IMG/VR virus record: IMGVR_UViG_3300042876_001141
Span: 1-21,533 of that record
Reading direction: 5' to 3' (one strand)
Source: a virus
Length of the DNA stretch: 21,533 bases
The notes below the pieces were generated by a model. It worked only from the letters and a program-made list of their open reading frames with translations, was not told the origin of the DNA and ran no database searches. Made by a program: the position numbers and the translations under genes. Below are positions 2,049 through 21,053 of this stretch, piece by piece; position 1 is the stretch's first letter; each line of letters begins with the position of its first letter.

Positions 2049-2334
2049 CGACCTTCGTCGCATCGCCGCCGAGGACCCCGAGATTGTCCGGGCCGCTGGC
2101 CGCGAGCTCATCGCCCTGGGTGAGCTCCTCGTCGCCGGCCGGATCGAGGAGGCGGTCCTCCGGATCGACGCCGCGCGCGCCACCTACCCCGAATGGGCCG
2201 CCCTCGACCAGGCGATCGCCAAGCTCGACGCCGCTGCGCGAGACGCCGACCGGACGGAAGCGAACCGCGAGGCGGCGCTCGGCGTTCTCGTGGCTGTTCT
2301 CCGGACCGCCCTCCGGGGAGCGGTGGGGCTCTGA
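2041..2334 (+). CDS. Small helical protein upstream of the terminase (small terminase candidate)
   Basis: 97 residues from a GTG at 2041, with GGGAGG (2029-2034) 6 nt upstream. It overlaps the previous stop by 8 nt, and its own stop overlaps the terminase ATG by one base (TGATG), so it is tightly coupled on both sides. The product is almost wholly alpha-helical and acidic (LRRIAAEDPEIVRAAGREL, then LDQAIAKLDAAARDADRTEA) with a hydrophobic C-terminal helix (ALGVLVAVLRTAL). The slot directly before the large terminase is normally that of the small terminase subunit, but I see no helix-turn-helix that would support this. It could equally be a lysis accessory or an unknown protein. Confidence 0.55.
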   Translation: MTDDLRRIAAEDPEIVRAAGRELIALGELLVAGRIEEAVLRIDAARATYPEWAALDQAIAKLDAAARDADRTEANREAALGVLVAVLRTALRGAVGL

Positions 2335-3857
2335 TGGCCGACCGCAGTCGCAACGCCCGGCTCGCCGAGACCCTGGCGAGCCCGGTCCTCTGGGGCCAGG
2401 CCTACCTCCGGAACCGAAATGGCGAGCCTCGGAGCTACTGGCCGCACCAGGTTGAGGACCTGCTGGCCGAGGAGCCCAACATCATCCATCTCGACGGAAG
2501 GGCTTCAGGAAAGTCGACCGACATTTCCACGCAGATCCTCCACTTCGCCTTCACGACCCGGGGAGGCCTCGGCCTGGTCGCGGCCCCCCACCAGGGGCAC
2601 CTCGACACGCTGATCGAGGAGATCGAGTTCCAACTCGACGCGAACCCTGACCTCTACGCCTCGATCGCGCTCACGAAGTACGGGAAGCCCAAGATCCACC
2701 GGAAGCCCTACTTCAGGCTCGAGTTCACCAACGGCTCGACCATCTACTTCCGGCCGGCCGGAGCCTACGGGGACGCCTTTCGATCGCTCCACGTCGAGCG
2801 GATCTGGGTCGACGAGGGAGCCTGGTTGACGGAACGATCCTGGAAGGCGCTCCGGCAATGCCTCAAGGCCGATGGCCGGCTCCGGATCTACTCGACGCCG
2901 AACGGACTCCGGGACACGACCTATTACCGGCTCACCCTCTCGCCGCAGTTCCGGGTCTTTCGCTGGCCGAGCTGGCTGAACCCCACCTGGTCAGACGAAC
3001 GGGAGGCCCAGCTCGTCGAGTTCTACGGCGGGAAGGAGACCGCCGGCTGGCAGCACGAGGTCGCCGGTGAGCACGGGAAGCCGAGCTACGGGGCCTTCAA
3101 CATCGAGCACCTGAACCTCTGCCGGCAGGAGGTCCTCGAGTATCAGAAGGTCGAGATCACCGGCGAGGAGCTGAAGGACTGCGACTCCGAAGACGCCTCG
3201 ACCGAGCGGCTCGAGATGCTCATGAACCTGATGCCGCAGACCGGCGTCTATTGGGTTGGTGGGGATCTCGGCTATACGAATGACCCGACCGAGCTGGTGG
3301 TCTTCCGCGAGGTCGAGGTCGCCGAGCGGCCGGTCCTCCGGATGGTCCTGCGGGTCCACATGGAGCACGTCGCCTACCCGCACGTCGCTCAGGCGATCGC
3401 GCTCCTCGAGCGGATGTACACGCCGGTGGGGATCGGCGTCGACAACGGCGGGAACGGGATGGCGGTCGTTCAGGACCTCCTGACCCTCGATCGGTTCAAG
3501 CCGCTGGGGCTCGACGGCCGGCTCAAGGGGTTCGACTTCGGAGGGATGACGACCCTGGCGGTCCGCGACGGCAAAGAGGTCAAGAAGCGGACGAAGGAGC
3601 TGATGACCAGCCTGATCAACGGGGCGCTCCAGCGACGCGCGATCGTCCTGCCGATCGATGACTCGGAGATCGAGGACCAATTCACGACCCAGACCTACAC
3701 GCTGAACGGCGGGAACGTCGTCTACTCGAAGGGGAACGACCACATCATCGACGCGGTGCGGTGCGCGATGCTGGCCAGGGAGCAGGGAGCGCTGGACCAG
3801 GCGAGGGAGGAGAGCGTGAGCCTGGTGCCGCTGGTCACGGAGCCGGTGTTCGTGTGA
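2334..3857 (+). CDS. terL: Phage terminase large subunit (packaging ATPase-nuclease)
   Basis: 507 residues, a normal length. This motor pumps DNA into the prohead and cuts it. The ATPase part shows the Walker A DGRASGKST (about 54-62), the Walker B RIWVDEG with D160-E161, and a coupling-type motif YSTPNG. The C-terminal RNase H-like nuclease shows D311 in GGDLGYTNDP, D370 in GIGVDNGGNG and D473 in HIIDAVR, which fit the three metal-binding acidic residues. The ATG at 2334 is set by the one-base overlap with the previous stop. The usual next gene, portal, is displaced by about 3.1 kb of cargo and repeats. Confidence 0.95.
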   Translation: MADRSRNARLAETLASPVLWGQAYLRNRNGEPRSYWPHQVEDLLAEEPNIIHLDGRASGKSTDISTQILHFAFTTRGGLGLVAAPHQGHLDTLIEEIEFQLDANPDLYASIALTKYGKPKIHRKPYFRLEFTNGSTIYFRPAGAYGDAFRSLHVERIWVDEGAWLTERSWKALRQCLKADGRLRIYSTPNGLRDTTYYRLTLSPQFRVFRWPSWLNPTWSDEREAQLVEFYGGKETAGWQHEVAGEHGKPSYGAFNIEHLNLCRQEVLEYQKVEITGEELKDCDSEDASTERLEMLMNLMPQTGVYWVGGDLGYTNDPTELVVFREVEVAERPVLRMVLRVHMEHVAYPHVAQAIALLERMYTPVGIGVDNGGNGMAVVQDLLTLDRFKPLGLDGRLKGFDFGGMTTLAVRDGKEVKKRTKELMTSLINGALQRRAIVLPIDDSEIEDQFTTQTYTLNGGNVVYSKGNDHIIDAVRCAMLAREQGALDQAREESVSLVPLVTEPVFV

Positions 3858-4082
3858 AGGGGCGAAATTGCCGGAGACACTCCGCTCGGTAGTGAAAGGC
3901 TGCATGGGGGAGCGGCGGTAGAATCCGCTCGTGCATCTGGTAGCTCCGATCACTTCGCCCTGGGTGGCGATGAATCTATCGAGCCGAGTTCGGATCTCGC
4001 GATCGGCTTCCAACGGGAAGCCGGTCCGGCATGTCTTCGCGGTCATGGGTCGCGGAACGGCTGCCTTGTGGAGGGATTCGCC
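3858..4082. other. Intergenic stretch between terminase and first cargo gene
   Basis: About 225 bp with no convincing gene, repeat or promoter. It appears less GC-rich than the terminase gene and is the left boundary of the first cargo block. A GGAGGG at 4070-4075 belongs to the next gene. Confidence 0.4.
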
Positions 4083-4847
4083 GTGCCGGTAGTCTCGGTG
4101 CTGCCCGTCCTGGTTCTGGTCCTTCCCGCCTTGGCCGCAGGGCCCATCCCTCGAGACATCGCGACGGCGCGGCCTTGTTCCGTGCGTCTGGTCGAGGCGG
4201 AGGCTGCTGAGGTTCCGGGCTGCGAGCAGAGCTTCTGCGTCTCGACGCCGAGTGGTTTCAAGATCTGCGGCTGTCCGATGGAGGACAGCGGCGATCCTTT
4301 CCGCGAGATGACCGTCTACCGGGGCAGCGAATCTCTTGTGTGCTGGAGCCAGGAACTTTTCACGATGGTCGACGCTACCGAGTTCTCGGTGGCGGAGATC
4401 GACATCGACGGTGATGGAAGGGTAGAGCTACTTGTTCAATCCCTTTTGGGTGCCTCGATGGGCATGGCACGACAATTCTCGGAGGTCTGCGTCATTCGAC
4501 CTCTCGAATCCGGAGCGCAGAAGGACTGCGTCGATGTCGAGGACTTCCCTGTCATGTCGTGGCTTGTCGATTTCGAAGATGGCTCGCCGTGCGAGCTTCT
4601 CGCTTCTACATGGCGCTCGGGTGAGGAGCCCAAGAGGGGCGACGGTCTCTACCTCGTTGGAGAGTGGTTCGGCTCGGTGGACGGACAGTTCGTTCGAGAC
4701 ACGGCACATCCCGCGTTCGCTCGTCGGTACTTGTACAGCTTCGAGAGGGCCCGAGGAAACTCGAACGGCAAGCCGATGATGTGGTTCAAAGACGAACGGG
4801 CACGCATCCTTCGGTGCCCCGACCCGCTCTGCGTCGTGGATCCATGA
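4083..4847 (+). CDS. Secreted Cys-rich protein with a calcium-loop-like motif
   Basis: 254 residues from the GTG at 4083, chosen because GGAGGG lies 8 nt upstream. A GTG at 4068 would add five residues. The N-terminus is an uninterrupted hydrophobic run ending in ALAAG, a likely signal peptide with a very short basic region. The mature part has several Cys (CEQSFC, then CGCP) that could form disulfides, and D107-x-D109-x-D111-G (DIDGDGRVELLV), as in FG-GAP/VCBS or dockerin-type calcium loops. No enzyme motif is seen. Third codon positions are less GC-biased than in the head genes, which suggests a different origin. The stop overlaps the next ATG, so it forms a coupled unit with the two genes after it. 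Function unknown. Confidence 0.6.
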   Translation: MPVVSVLPVLVLVLPALAAGPIPRDIATARPCSVRLVEAEAAEVPGCEQSFCVSTPSGFKICGCPMEDSGDPFREMTVYRGSESLVCWSQELFTMVDATEFSVAEIDIDGDGRVELLVQSLLGASMGMARQFSEVCVIRPLESGAQKDCVDVEDFPVMSWLVDFEDGSPCELLASTWRSGEEPKRGDGLYLVGEWFGSVDGQFVRDTAHPAFARRYLYSFERARGNSNGKPMMWFKDERARILRCPDPLCVVDP

Positions 4848-5269
4848 CGAAGTCCCATCGACACTCCCTACCCGAGGAGCAGCCGCTGCGCACCATCCGC
4901 GTCTGCCTGGTCGACGACCGCGCCGACCTCCGGGCGCTCGTGCGCGAGACGCTCGCCTCCGAGCCGGACATCGCCGTGGTTGGCGAGGCCGCGGACGGGG
5001 AAGAGGCGCTCGAAGTCATCGGCAAGTGCCGCCCCGATGTCGTCCTCCTCGACGTCCAGATGCCGAGACGGAGCGGCCTCGAAGTCCTCGAGGAACTCGG
5101 GCAGCGGGGAGCGATCCCGACGACCCTTCTCTTTACCTCCGACATGTCGCTCTCGACGGCCGACGCGATCCGATCGGGCGCCCGGGGGGTTCTCCACAAG
5201 CAGAAGGGGGTCAAGCGGGTTCCGGGAGCGATCCGGGCGCTCGCGGGAGGTCGGGCAGGTCGTGAATAG
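4844..5269 (+). CDS. Single-domain response regulator (receiver domain only)
   Basis: 141 residues. It is a complete CheY-like receiver: acidic pair D24-D25 in VCLVDD, phosphoacceptor D70 in VVLLDVQMP, T98 in LLFTSD, and K119 in GVLHKQ. All the residues needed for phosphorylation are present. Fifteen or so residues precede the domain and only a short tail follows, so there is no DNA-binding or enzymatic output domain. ATG (4844) and the previous TGA share ATGA, a coupling overlap, and the stop overlaps the next GTG. No histidine kinase is in the window, so a host kinase would have to donate phosphate. A receiver domain between phage head genes is unusual. The target is unknown. Confidence 0.85.
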   Translation: MTKSHRHSLPEEQPLRTIRVCLVDDRADLRALVRETLASEPDIAVVGEAADGEEALEVIGKCRPDVVLLDVQMPRRSGLEVLEELGQRGAIPTTLLFTSDMSLSTADAIRSGARGVLHKQKGVKRVPGAIRALAGGRAGRE

Positions 5270-6275
5270 GCATTCGAGCACGCTACGACTCGGCACGGTC
5301 GGGATTCTCTCGACCCTGGCGCTCGCCCTGGTGGGTTGTTTCAGCTGGAGTCGCGGGCTTCAGGCTCGCTACACGGATCCGGCGGAACCGGTATTCGACG
5401 TGAACCGGTACCTCGAGGAATCGGCTGCGGCGACTCACGCAGGCATTCTGAAGAATGGGAAGCCCTTCCGGATCGTCTGCTCGCCCGGCCTGCGAGTCGA
5501 CCAGGACGCGATCAAGCGGCGGTACGAGACCATCATCGAGTTCATCGAGCAGCTTTCGGGCGAGAGGTTCCCTCGCGGCGTGGAGCTTGTCGTTGTTCCG
5601 CTGGCGAAGACACCGGCGAACTTCCGGTTCTCCTACTCGCCTTCGGATACCTACCGGGATCTGATCTTCATGGAGGATTCGCGGCCGGAAGCGACCGCCG
5701 ACCTTCTCTGCCGGATCGAGCCCACCGCCCCCCACGAGATGTGGCACGTCGTCGGACACGTCATGCTCGACCAGGCTGGCTCGACGGGGGCAGGCTGGTT
5801 CGAGGAGGGGCTCGCCGAGTATGTCCACTGGCGCCTTTCCTCTGCAGGATGCGACGCCGGACCCCGGCGGGAGGTGGCGCTCGAGGCGTTGATGGATTCG
5901 GAGCGGCGGGCGGGGCTCTGGCGATTCTCGCCCTTCCTGGCAAGCGCGGAGCTTCGAAAGCCGGTCACGACCTCCGAGGATCAAGGCGCCGTTCAGAAGG
6001 GCTGGAAGGACGTCGACGCCGGTTACGCAGCCTCTCTCGGAGTGTTTCTGGTCATGGAGTCCCGAGTTGGTCGTTCGAGGCTCGAGGCGATCGCCCAGCG
6101 ACTCAACCGCGACTTCCGAGCTCAGACCGACGAGTTCTACGCGGCTCTCGAGCTCGAGCTGGGCTTCGATGTTCGACGAATCGACGCAGCGATGATCGAA
6201 CAGGCGGGCGTCGGGATTCCGAAGACACTGGACCGCCCATTCGTTTCTCCCCTCTCGTCTGTAAATAGAGAGTAG
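5262..6275 (+). CDS. Zinc metallopeptidase lipoprotein (gluzincin-type HExxH)
   Basis: 337 residues from a GTG at 5262 that overlaps the receiver stop by 8 nt. The signal sequence LSTLALALVGC has a clear lipobox (LVGC, Cys26), so the protein should be anchored to a membrane facing outwards. The zinc site is H158-E-M-W-H162, followed by GWFEEGLAEY, in which E182 is the likely third ligand. Spacing and the EEGLAEY motif match gluzincin 'peptidase MA'-like enzymes. The substrate is unknown. The last residues (FVSPLSSVNRE) and the stop codon come from copy 1 of the TTCGTT-N16-TAAATA element, so the gene end appears to have been formed or replaced by that element. Confidence 0.75.
   Translation: MNRHSSTLRLGTVGILSTLALALVGCFSWSRGLQARYTDPAEPVFDVNRYLEESAAATHAGILKNGKPFRIVCSPGLRVDQDAIKRRYETIIEFIEQLSGERFPRGVELVVVPLAKTPANFRFSYSPSDTYRDLIFMEDSRPEATADLLCRIEPTAPHEMWHVVGHVMLDQAGSTGAGWFEEGLAEYVHWRLSSAGCDAGPRREVALEALMDSERRAGLWRFSPFLASAELRKPVTTSEDQGAVQKGWKDVDAGYAASLGVFLVMESRVGRSRLEAIAQRLNRDFRAQTDEFYAALELELGFDVRRIDAAMIEQAGVGIPKTLDRPFVSPLSSVNRE
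6240..6275 (+). promoter_or_regulatory. Copy 1 of the TTCGTT-N16-TAAATA element
   Basis: TTCGTT at 6240-6245 and TAAATA at 6262-6267, 16 bp apart, then GAGAGTAG. It is the most divergent of four copies (CTCGTCTG instead of CTCGCCGG before TAAATA). It overlaps the end of the peptidase gene and precedes the tandem array, so if it is a promoter it would transcribe the array. Confidence 0.55.
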
Positions 6276-6387
6276 AGAGCCTCGTTCTCAGTTCTCCGAG
6301 GCGGTCCGTGCGTGTCTCCAGGAGCCCCCGACGACCCCGATCGTGCGGCTGGCGCCCGTTTCCCGGTCGGGTCATGCGATCCAGATC

Positions 6388-6865
6388 TGACCTCTCGGGT
6401 CATGTTCTCGGCCCGGGCTTGACCTCCCTGGTCATGCTCTTGGCATCCGGCATGACCTCCCAGGTCGTGCTGGTCGAGTCGGAGTCGTGCCGCCTTCTCC
6501 CCCCTGCGGTCCGGACTTGACCTCCCTGGTCATGCCCTCGGCATTCGGCATGACCTCCCAGGTCATGTTGGTCGAGTCGGAGTCGGGCCAACCTCTCTCG
6601 CGTGCGGTCCGGGATTTGACCTCCTTGGTCATGGCCTCGGCATTCGGCATGACCTCCCAGGTCACGTTGGTCGAGTCGGAGTCGTGCCACCTTCTCTCGC
6701 CTGCGGCCGGGACTTGACCTCCTTGGTCATGGCCTCGGCATTCGGCATGACCTCCCAGGTCATGTTGGTCGAGCCGGAGTCATGCCGCCTTCTCCCCCCT
6801 GCGATCCGGACTTGACCTCTCTGGTCATGCCCTCGGCATCCGGCATGACCTCCCAGGTCATGTCG
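6388..6865. repeat. Tandem array of about 98-bp units with eleven phased palindromes
   Basis: Five units start at 6418, 6516, 6615, 6713 and 6811 (98, 99, 98, 98 bp). Each has two inverted repeats TGACC-N5-GGTCA, the second usually TGACCTCCCAGGTCA, then a conserved TTGGTCGAGTCGGAGTC-type segment. Palindromes start at 6388, 6420, 6453, 6518, 6551, 6617, 6650, 6715, 6748, 6813 and 6846, so gaps alternate between about 33 and 65 bp. Only the 6453 copy has a mismatch in an arm. The last unit diverges after 6865. The frames that stay open across it on the minus strand are repeat artefacts. The phasing suggests an array of dimeric protein-binding sites, such as a partition, replication or packaging site. 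A structured RNA is the alternative. Confidence 0.85.
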
Positions 6866-6890: not shown

Positions 6891-6934
6891 GCCCCCCCTT
6901 CGTTTCGCCCGTCTCGCCGGTAAATAGAGAGTAG
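6891..6934 (+). promoter_or_regulatory. Copy 2 of the TTCGTT-N16-TAAATA element, upstream of portal
   Basis: A C-rich tract, TTCGTT (6899-6904), 16 bp ending in CTCGCCGG, TAAATA (6921-6926), then GAGAGTAG. It lies 44 nt before the portal ATG. A GTG at 6934 falls where a transcript from such a promoter would begin, so a leaderless start is also possible. Confidence 0.6.
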
Positions 6935-6969
6935 TGGGCCCCGCCTTCGGGCTGGCTACCCGCTCCTCG

Positions 6970-8601
6970 ATGAGCCGACGACGAGCACGATTCAGCCGAA
7001 CCGCCCTTTCTCCTGCAGCCGACCCGGGCCCCGGCCAGGGAGGTCCGCTCCAGGCGTCTGCAGTGGTCATCCCCCCGCTGGCCTCGGCGGCCGCCCTCGA
7101 CCCGTCGGCTTTCTCGAAGGTCGCCGCGACCGAGGCGATCCCGAAGACCTGGGAGGAGCGGGCCCGGAAGGCCTGGGACTACTACGTCGAGGAACCACTC
7201 GTGAAGAACTGCGTGAACTCCTGGCGGACCTTCGCGGTGGGGGACGAGATCGGGTTCGCCAGCGACGACGAGGCGTTCCAGGCCGAAGTCGAGGCGCTCG
7301 CCGGCCGGCTCGGCATCTCGATTTTCGTGAAGGACATGGTCCTCCAGCTCCTCGTCAAGGGAGACGCGGTCGGCTTCAAGCGGTACACGACGGACGCCCG
7401 GGACCTCGAGGAGGTCGTCTGCGTCAACCCGGTCTCGGTGAAGGTGAAGTACGCCGAGGGGGAGCTGGTCGAGGTGACGCAGACGAAGGACGAGACTCCG
7501 GGAGCCGATCCGCTGGATCTTCCGGTCGAGCAGGTCCTCCACCTGAAATGGGACGCGCCGGCCTTCTCGCCCCGGGGGAACTCGCTGGTTCTTCCGGCGT
7601 TCCAGTCGATCGAGCTGCTCCGGGACTACCGACGCGCCGAGCAGGCGATCGCGAGACGCTGGGCGACGCCGTTCCGGCTGCTCAAGGTCGGCGGGGCCTA
7701 CGGCCCCAAGATCGTGATGCCCGACCAGCGGATGCTCGAGCAGGTCCGCGACATGGTCAACAAGATGGACCTGAAGAGCGGCCTGGTCGTGCCCTTCTAC
7801 GTGACGGTCGAGACCCACGGGACCGACGGGCAGGTGCTCAACGTCGAGGACAAGGTGAAGGAGGTCAAGGAGGACATCGTCGTCGCGCTTGGCCTCTCGC
7901 GGTCGCTGGTGACGGGGGACGGCCCCAACTTCGCGACGGCTTCGGTCTCGCTCCAGAAGATGCTGGTGATGGTCCGCGAGATCAAGCACGCTGCGCGTCG
8001 AATCCTCGACTGGGTATTCGACGACTGGCGAAAGCTCCGGGGCCATGGCGACAAGGCGGTCCAATACCTGTTCAACGACCTCGACCCATCGGACGCGGTC
8101 GAGGTCCGCCGGCTCCTCATCGATCTGTACGACCGGAAGCTGATCAGCCGGTCGAGCCTCCAGCTCAAGATGGACCTCGATCCGGACGTCGAGGCTGCGA
8201 ACCGGGAGAACGAGCGGCGCTCGGTCGACATATTCGACGAGAAGCAGGTGAAGCCGATCGTCGACCTGGTGACGGCGACGGTCCTGCCGGTCGAGGCGGC
8301 TCAGGAGCTTCTCGGGATCGAAGCGAAGCCGGCGATCGAGCAGGGGCTCCCGCCGGAGACGGCCCTCGCCGGCCGGGCGGATCTGGCCGGGGAGATCTGC
8401 GATGGCTGCGCGCATTTCGACGAGGCGGAAAACGCCTGCCGGGTCCTTCGGGAAGAGCGGGCATTCGATGCGGCGGCCTGTCGGTTCTTCGAGGGGAGGC
8501 TACCGGTCGGAGCGTCGCTCCGGGGGTCCGAGCTTCCCGCGACATCGCCCGGTGTGCCGGCGCCGGAGCGACAGCCGGGCTGCCCCGGCTGCTCGAAGTG
8601 A
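6970..8601 (+). CDS. Phage portal protein
   Basis: 543 residues from the ATG at 6970. A GTG at 6934 would add 12. The portal forms the ring at the unique capsid vertex through which DNA passes and where the tail attaches. The sequence has the typical order of such proteins: an N-terminal region with TWEERARKAWDYYVEEPLV, a beta-rich part with NPVSVKVKYAEGELVE, then HLKWDAPAFSPRGNSLVLPA, and the long helical stem with VALGLSRSLVTGDGPNFATA and LSPxxAxEVRRLLxDL-like segments. The C-terminus adds C477, C480, C490 and C504 (C-x2-C-x9-C-x13-C), plus a final CPGC at 538-541, which is not usual in portals and may bind a metal. The stop overlaps the next GTG (GTGA). The ribosome-binding site is weak. 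Confidence 0.9.
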   Translation: MSRRRARFSRTALSPAADPGPGQGGPLQASAVVIPPLASAAALDPSAFSKVAATEAIPKTWEERARKAWDYYVEEPLVKNCVNSWRTFAVGDEIGFASDDEAFQAEVEALAGRLGISIFVKDMVLQLLVKGDAVGFKRYTTDARDLEEVVCVNPVSVKVKYAEGELVEVTQTKDETPGADPLDLPVEQVLHLKWDAPAFSPRGNSLVLPAFQSIELLRDYRRAEQAIARRWATPFRLLKVGGAYGPKIVMPDQRMLEQVRDMVNKMDLKSGLVVPFYVTVETHGTDGQVLNVEDKVKEVKEDIVVALGLSRSLVTGDGPNFATASVSLQKMLVMVREIKHAARRILDWVFDDWRKLRGHGDKAVQYLFNDLDPSDAVEVRRLLIDLYDRKLISRSSLQLKMDLDPDVEAANRENERRSVDIFDEKQVKPIVDLVTATVLPVEAAQELLGIEAKPAIEQGLPPETALAGRADLAGEICDGCAHFDEAENACRVLREERAFDAAACRFFEGRLPVGASLRGSELPATSPGVPAPERQPGCPGCSK

Positions 8602-14202: not shown

Positions 14203-14916
14203 CTAGGAAAGTGCGTGCATGCCTTGACAGGTCTTCTTGAGGAACCGAACGGTCGCGGCGTACTTTCTTCGGCTCCTGCATGAATCCGCCGTCGCGCTAA
14301 GTGACTTTAGCGCCGAGACTGCGCCAGTGGTGGTGGGTCCCCATTGAACAGCGTGACTCATCGGAGTGACGCATCTCTTGGCGGGAACGGGGTATTCCAC
14401 GACGTCTTCGACGCCTTTGATCCGTGAACCCAGGAGAGGATGCTGGATCACGGTCGCGTGGAGCCCAACTCCGATCCATTCCTGGCTTTCAGCCGCCAAG
14501 AATGCGTCTACGATCGGCTGCCCGACGAAGACTCCTCCCGCGAGGTCCAAGACGCATTCGCCGTAAGCGATCGCGCCCCGGAATGGCCAGCCCGACTCCA
14601 AGGCTCGAGCTTCAAGATCGGCGACGCACGAGATTAGAGTCCGAAGCTCTTCCCACCCGTCGTCACAGCAGAGGAGAACGGAGTCGCTGAAGATGGCTCG
14701 GCCGACCGTCCATTTTTCTAAACCCCTGGCTGAACCGACAGGAAGCGAAGAGCAATAAGCTGCGAGCCTCAGGAGCTGCCGATAGTCGCTGACGAGTTGC
14801 GTCAGAGGAGTTCTTTTCAGTCGATTCTTGAATCCGAGAACGTCCAGGACAGCGACGAACGCCTGGCTCGGGCGATCAGTCGGAGTGAACGCCGGGCGGG
14901 TTTTCTCGATGGTCAT
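14203..14916 (-). CDS. Orphan nucleotide-cyclase-like protein (class III cyclase fold candidate)
   Basis: 237 residues on the strand opposite to the head genes. The core shows FVAVLDVLGFKN (D25), FSDSVLLCCDD (D78), FRGAIAYGEC (R113-G114) and VFVGQPIVDAFLAAESQEW. This order (Asp on a first strand, a second Asp in 'sDs', then 'RGaI.yGe' and 'G.aiv.A...E') is that of class III adenylate/guanylate cyclase-like domains, including the pyrimidine cyclases of Pycsar defence. The two Asp would bind the metals. No partner effector (TIR or membrane protein) is adjacent. The start at 14916 has GGGGAG 9 nt upstream. Opposite strand, milder codon bias and its own possible -10 (TAGAAT at 14976-14981) suggest a cargo gene expressed apart from the phage lytic genes. 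Confidence 0.6.
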   Translation of the reverse strand: MTIEKTRPAFTPTDRPSQAFVAVLDVLGFKNRLKRTPLTQLVSDYRQLLRLAAYCSSLPVGSARGLEKWTVGRAIFSDSVLLCCDDGWEELRTLISCVADLEARALESGWPFRGAIAYGECVLDLAGGVFVGQPIVDAFLAAESQEWIGVGLHATVIQHPLLGSRIKGVEDVVEYPVPAKRCVTPMSHAVQWGPTTTGAVSALKSLSATADSCRSRRKYAATVRFLKKTCQGMHALS

Positions 14917-14982
14917 CCCATGGTTCTCCCCAAACGGTCGTCTGCGTTCATCCGTCGGCGTGACGACCACTCTGAATTCTAG

Positions 14983-15024
14983 CCCCCCCCCTTCGTTTTG
15001 GCTCTCTCGCCGGTAAATAGAGAG
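14983..15024 (+). promoter_or_regulatory. Copy 3 of the TTCGTT-N16-TAAATA element, upstream of the methyltransferase fusion
   Basis: A C9 tract, TTCGTT (14992-14997), 16 bp ending in CTCGCCGG, TAAATA (15014-15019), then GAGAGTAG. It lies 80 nt before the ATG at 15100 and exactly at the border between the opposite-strand cargo gene and the rightward head genes. Confidence 0.6.
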
Positions 15025-15099
15025 TAGCGGGTCTCTTTCCCCGGCCGTCCACCGGTCGGCCCGAGAGCCCCGCCTACCTGCTCTACCGACGGGAGGGAA

Positions 15100-20954: not shown

Positions 20955-20999
20955 CCCCACCCCCCTTCGTTTTGTCCTCCTCGCCGGTAAATAGAAGAG
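20955..20999 (+). promoter_or_regulatory. Copy 4 of the TTCGTT-N16-TAAATA element, upstream of the last tail gene
   Basis: A C-rich tract, TTCGTT (20966-20971), 16 bp ending in CTCGCCGG, TAAATA (20988-20993), then GAAGAGTG, with one base more than in the other copies. It lies in the only sizeable gap (112 bp) of the connector-tail operon, 66 nt before the next start. Confidence 0.6.
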
Positions 21000-21053
21000 T
21001 GAGGGCCTGTCACTCGCTCGAACCAACCGACAGCCCCAGGGAGCGCTGCCACC

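Follow-up and report, generated by a model that had tools for sequence, protein, structure and literature searches.

A palindrome array in the late region of a phage fragment, with likeness to operators of XRE-family repressors

In restriction-modification systems, the operators of C proteins consist of two or three sites in the intergenic space ahead of the regulator gene. In Cluster A mycobacteriophages (PMC9283540, PMC6550527), many repressor sites, known as stoperators, are found beyond the classical early operator and may act as transcription roadblocks. Stoperators lack symmetry and are scattered across the genome of a phage that encodes its own repressor. Here we describe an array of TGACC-N5-GGTCA palindromes in a linear IMG/VR record of 21,533 bp (the whole stretch analyzed; "the window" below). 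A literature search returned no paper containing this motif, and a combined search for TGACC, GGTCA, and XRE returned nothing relevant.

Architecture and genomic setting of the array

Eleven TGACC-N5-GGTCA palindromes are located between positions 6388 and 6860 (starts at 6388, 6420, 6453, 6518, 6551, 6617, 6650, 6715, 6748, 6813, and 6846). Ten are perfect, and the copy at 6453 has the right arm GGTCG. The ten perfect sites compare with a mean of 0.03 in 100 shuffles of the 21,533-nt window, which bears out the eleven-site array recognized in an earlier note on this DNA. The alternating gaps of 33 and 65 bp given in that note were likewise recovered, with measured values of 32/33 and 65/66 bp (in order, 32, 33, 65, 33, 66, 33, 65, 33, 65, and 33 bp). 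TRF reported a period of 98 with 4.6 copies and 88% matches, and the 197-nt double-unit copies are 80 to 86% alike. The five two-site units of 98 bp described earlier are retained as five doublets, with the correction that one additional site stands at the left end. The arms, previously called nearly unchanged, do vary less than their surroundings (1 of 20 arm columns versus 23 of 79 other columns; Fisher p of 0.04, calculated on non-independent copies of a tandem array). The placement of the whole array on one DNA face had to be given up: 98 bp corresponds to 9.33 turns (10.5 bp per turn), i.e., a phase drift of approximately 120 degrees per unit, and only the paired sites of a doublet, 33 bp or 3.1 turns apart, share a face.

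The window encodes TerL, the portal protein, a large ORF that we take to be MuF-like, a methyltransferase ORF (presumably a methyltransferase/protease), the major capsid protein, and neck genes. The TerL gene (2331..3857, plus strand; identified by protein match and synteny) forms the left border of a cargo hotspot, and the portal gene (6934..8601, plus strand; protein match) is the first gene past the array. The gap between the two contains three cargo genes and the array. Synteny with relatives delimits these cargo (moron) genes (4068..6275, plus strand), which are present here but not in compact relatives. They comprise a receiver-only response regulator (4838-5269) flanked by two ORFs of unknown function, at 4068-4847 and at 5283-6275 (all on the plus strand), the latter with weak similarity to a metallopeptidase model. 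Elsewhere in the window, two short ORFs are encoded on the minus strand. The one at 97-621 partially matches the phage integrase family, with no catalytic part seen, and its homolog precedes TerL in most relatives (47 to 55% identity); the one at 991-1500 had no match. Within the ORF at 1590-2048, four CGTTCCCAGTGGGAACGC-like palindromes are spaced 38 to 42 bp apart (1877-2016); a palindrome of this kind was found as a single copy in one Myxococcota genome (24 records). The late operon is interrupted by an opposite-strand gene (14203-14959, minus strand), whose product had no Pfam match and by eye presumably resembles a nucleotide-cyclase-like domain.

A 52-bp repeat, termed D2, occurs four times in the window, all on the plus strand. 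Copy 1 (6233..6284) is located upstream of the array and runs across the end of the ORF at 5283-6275, copy 2 (6892..6943) lies immediately before the portal gene, copy 3 (14985..15036) precedes the methyltransferase/protease ORF, and copy 4 (20959..21010) follows a neck gene. The array is thus situated between copies 1 and 2, with no overlap with the late promoter core. Relatives of the window phage carry a related element, TCCGACR-N-TCCGGTAAGTAA, before the portal gene, before the methyltransferase gene, and after the neck gene, i.e., at positions that match those of three D2 copies (including copy 2), and this element was found 80 times in the forward and 0 times in the reverse orientation in 425 kb of relatives. 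We take D2 to be the late promoter in this family of phages. A scan of viral contigs with a late-promoter pattern gave no match.

Gene order is common to the window and 39 viral relatives, most of which have a TerL-portal distance of <200 bp. Several relatives carry other cargo between these two genes (e.g., what we take to be a cytosine methylase in L041). The TGACC-N5-GGTCA motif was absent from the loci of all 39 relatives, and their longer records contained at most a single site and never an array. The closest relative found by searching Acidobacteriota genomes is a prophage on a 44-kb contig (genome G440; 81% identity in TerL, 74% in portal, and 73% in capsid), which has neither the array nor single TGACC-N5-GGTCA sites, nor an XRE of the operator family described below. 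This makes an Acidobacteriota bacterium a plausible host of the window phage, subject to the caution that binned contigs generally call for; a tetranucleotide comparison was not discriminating.

Palindromes upstream of XRE genes and in other phages

Among 84,980 genomes, the exact 19-bp core was found in 38 stretches, once in each and mostly uninformative, and a looser 15-base pattern occurred one to six times per genome in those 38 core-bearing genomes. These low counts leave the alternative of a neutral host repeat, raised in the earlier note, unsupported in the genomes checked, and it was set aside. In the Myxococcota loci L065 and L080, the core belongs to a doublet between a divergent serine recombinase gene and an XRE gene. 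A strict doublet pattern matched only two of 396 Acidobacteriota genomes, both at orthologs of the Myxococcota XRE, and a profile search with the XRE added two loci missed by the motif search (L148 in G339 and L149 in G287) and again recovered L161. Six loci from Acidobacteriota and Myxococcota therefore carry tandem palindromes immediately ahead of orthologous genes for XRE (HTH_3) repressors; being orthologous, they are not fully independent, and their sites have diverged around conserved arms. All six have three sites, at approximately -107, -75, and -44 from the XRE start (30 to 32 bp apart), with conserved arms, varied centers, and one or two changes in some sites. A serine recombinase is the divergent neighbor in five of the six loci. 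L161 has no recombinase and only a broken XRE (a pseudogene), yet it retains the palindromes, which indicates that the sites go with the XRE.

Where the arms of these native sites are altered, pairing is broken or a G-U pair is left, and none of the changes is compensated, a pattern that favors recognition of the DNA by a protein over an RNA structure. The native XRE is an HTH_3 protein, and its nearest relatives of solved structure are C.BclI, C.AhdI, and one protein called DBP48; 11 distant XREs had no site with at least 9 of the 10 arm bases. The elements with native sites also encode two RepB/ParB_N proteins beside the recombinase. With the same palindromes and spacing preceding orthologous XRE genes in two phyla, the earlier proposal of an array of dimer-binding sites is well supported. 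In L104 and L105, a second palindrome (CAAGTTG..CAACTTG), conserved between both Myxococcota loci at approximately -31 from the XRE start, is possibly another operator.

No XRE of the native-operator family was found in the window by a six-frame search, nor in the viral relatives (in a run that contained no positive control). The earlier remark that no cognate protein is recognizable nearby thus stands for the window, and a likely cognate family can now be named from elsewhere. A BLAST search of the array against phages and plasmids, a search for the XRE protein in plasmids and phages, and a first genome scan with a two-site pattern each returned nothing, and an XRE search in viral contigs gave only distant matches. 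A few candidates were discarded: the single site of L088 apparently lies in coding sequence, the doublets of L091, L092, and L098 had no XRE seen close by, and the single site of L067, one match before another XRE with a different helix, was given no weight.

To score polarity, we used a matrix built from the native XRE-operator sites. Most window sites score best on the minus strand, on which the odd sites read GCATGACCAGGGAGGTCAAGTCC, compared with GCATGACCAGTTAGGTCAAGTCC for native O2. With the flanks scored alone, approximately 1.4e-4 of background positions equal the match at 6813 and 6518. This match is one among about 60 site/strand/model comparisons with non-independent array copies; as a sequence match, it lends moderate support to XRE-operator polarity. 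Repeats, shuffles, and this flank match together define the array as an operator-like feature on the minus strand (6388..6860). At its left end, read on the minus strand, the sites at 6453, 6420, and 6388 form a trio (6388..6467) 33 and 32 bp apart, spaced like O1-O2-O3 (native spacings of 32 and 30 to 31 bp), and this spacing suggests an O1-O2-O3 layout, though only faintly for 6388 as O3. The XRE start would then be expected near 6358 on the minus strand, where no XRE was found. In summary, the array shares with the XRE operators its palindromes with varied centers and its doublet spacing (32 to 33 bp versus 30 to 32 bp), and it lacks the orthologous XRE gene directly downstream.

Among viral contigs, a two-site pattern led to an unrelated phage (L048/L049). 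Two copies of CATGACCTCCCAGGTCATG lie there at a distance of 32 bp within an 80-bp gap between genes, and this phage, too, lacks an XRE of the native family. A broader two-site pattern recovered 22 loci in viral contigs, 10 of which (counting the near-duplicates L169/L185 and probably L175/L179) encode a protein matching the XRE profile (E value of <1e-3). The prophages L169, L173, L175, L179, L182, L184, and L187 carry an XRE gene and a TGACC-N5-GGTCA doublet of 31 to 32 bp astride a TTGAC (-35) box. From the character of their proteins, we presume that they belong to Alphaproteobacteria. Their XREs appear, from sequence, to form a different XRE group that uses the same operator as the native loci. 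The L186 array is a coding repeat, and others of the loci are coding repeats or a different motif. Arrays of many ACCCA-N-TGGGT palindromes were seen near apparent terminase genes in L172 (5814), L177 (1855), and L180 (1267); with their different motif, they seem to represent a further type of phage palindrome array.

Candidate functions of the array

These observations suggest that the array most likely consists of operators recognized by an XRE-type repressor (Cro/CI-type, HTH_3). The repressor would be of the kind that adjoins a serine recombinase in mobile elements of Acidobacteriota and Myxococcota, with one dimer binding each palindrome and the distance of approximately 33 bp (three turns) within doublets allowing cooperative binding. 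The sites were probably captured from an XRE operator region and amplified, without the repressor gene, within the cargo hotspot that separates TerL from portal, where a late promoter lies on either side. The repressor would be supplied in trans; its source could be a resident element or the window phage itself, which is a fragment and may have its own repressor gene beyond the sequenced part. Covering 470 bp, the repressor could silence the late promoter and block read-through into the portal operon. Given XRE-operator identity, such silencing in cis seems as probable as not or slightly more so, and control of the late region is favored by the position of the array between late-promoter elements and by the L048 doublet in an ordinary promoter position. 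Against this explanation as a whole stand the absence of a native-family XRE from the window and its relatives, the lack of overlap with the late promoter core, the three sites of native operators as opposed to eleven, and the fact that the recombinase or the RepB-like proteins could in principle bind. The reading as a whole (amplified XRE operators without an XRE gene, silencing the late region through a repressor in trans) is put forward tentatively, at somewhat under even confidence.

The same sites might instead serve as a decoy (sponge) that titrates the XRE repressor of a resident mobile element or prophage during infection or replication, derepressing or disarming that element, in which case the place of the array in the phage genome would be arbitrary. 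Such a role would account for a site count that exceeds what control requires (eleven versus three native sites), the missing repressor gene, a location in an accessory cargo hotspot with no counterpart in relatives, and the similarly XRE-less doublet of the unrelated phage L048/L049. That doublet, however, occupies an ordinary 80-bp gene gap, and the array lies exactly between two late-promoter elements, as if for control in cis; we consider a decoy less probable than silencing, yet a serious rival to it. The array could also be a relic, i.e., a captured operator region of a mobile element that was expanded by replication slippage and is now functionless. Its tandem 98-bp units with similar 197-nt double units would agree with slippage, the XRE and recombinase genes are gone, and G287 holds an element in decay whose sites persist beside a broken XRE. 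The perfection of 10 of the 11 sites and the lower variability of the arms (p of 0.04) speak against a relic, which seems improbable.

Readings that dispense with an XRE fare worse. The palindromes might form a partition or centromere-like site bound by the RepB/ParB-like proteins of mobile elements, two of which are encoded beside the recombinase. We regard this as very unlikely, since the native sites keep fixed distances from the XRE start, L161 retains them next to a broken XRE without a recombinase, the doublets of the alphaproteobacterial prophages adjoin XRE genes, and no RepB or ParB gene was recognized among the window proteins searched. RNA transcribed from D2 copy 1, a late-promoter-like element upstream, might form a row of hairpins acting on RNA processing or stability, and the predicted fold of the 669-nt array region is indeed stabler than that of shuffles (z of -4.6). 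However, palindromes would fold stably anyway, the arms hold to a single sequence without covariation, changes in native sites are uncompensated, and an Rfam search of the array region gave no match; an RNA element is very unlikely. The position between TerL and portal would suit a core function of the phage family, such as a packaging signal, a replication origin, or a late enhancer. The earlier suggestion of a packaging signal, iteron, or partition site as a core function is not supported: the 39 viral relatives, most with TerL-portal gaps of <200 bp, and the closest prophage all lack the array. We judge a core role of this kind the most improbable of all.

Comparison with known systems

A sponge, or a sensor for a foreign repressor on the late operon, through which the repressor of a competing mobile element controls the phage or is disarmed by it, is conceivable though rather unlikely. 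In that case, operator capture without the repressor would be a tool in mobile-element conflict, used by at least two unrelated phages (the window phage and L048/L049). An anonymous palindrome array has in this way become a testable prediction, namely, that the XRE of the recombinase/RepB elements binds TGACC-N5-GGTCA doublets approximately 32 bp apart. Such operators, unaccompanied by the repressor gene in the available sequence, occur in the window phage and probably in another, unrelated phage. This hints that, in hosts that have received little study, phages and other mobile elements may be in conflict or linked by regulatory cross-talk. The analysis also yielded a late-promoter consensus for the phage family and a probable host phylum.

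Several known classes of tandem sites resemble the array in part. Replication iterons and plasmid partition sites are likewise tandem sites for a sequence-specific protein, but no Rep or ParB gene was recognized among the window proteins searched, and the native copies precede XRE genes. A replication origin is further disfavored by the absence of the array from relatives and by its neighbors, which are cargo genes and the portal gene. As for parS, no ParB-type gene was recognized among the window proteins searched, and RepB-like genes are present in the elements with native sites. REP/BIME repeats are also paired palindromes in gene gaps, but the motif of the array is not abundant in any genome checked. 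In a CRISPR array, the DNA between sites would consist of unique spacers, whereas here it is itself repeated.

The XRE/C1-type operator regions, including those of the C.AhdI and C.BclI controllers, share with the array tandem palindromes for HTH_3 dimers, there located upstream of the regulator gene. The array differs from them and from C-protein operators in having eleven sites rather than two or three, a larger spacing (31 to 33 bp), and no regulator gene. Assignment to the stoperators was rejected, as the array is palindromic and clustered and the window has no native-family repressor. Nonetheless, the two are alike in that a phage genome carries many repressor sites, which in the window are putative and take the form of palindromes in one tandem cluster.
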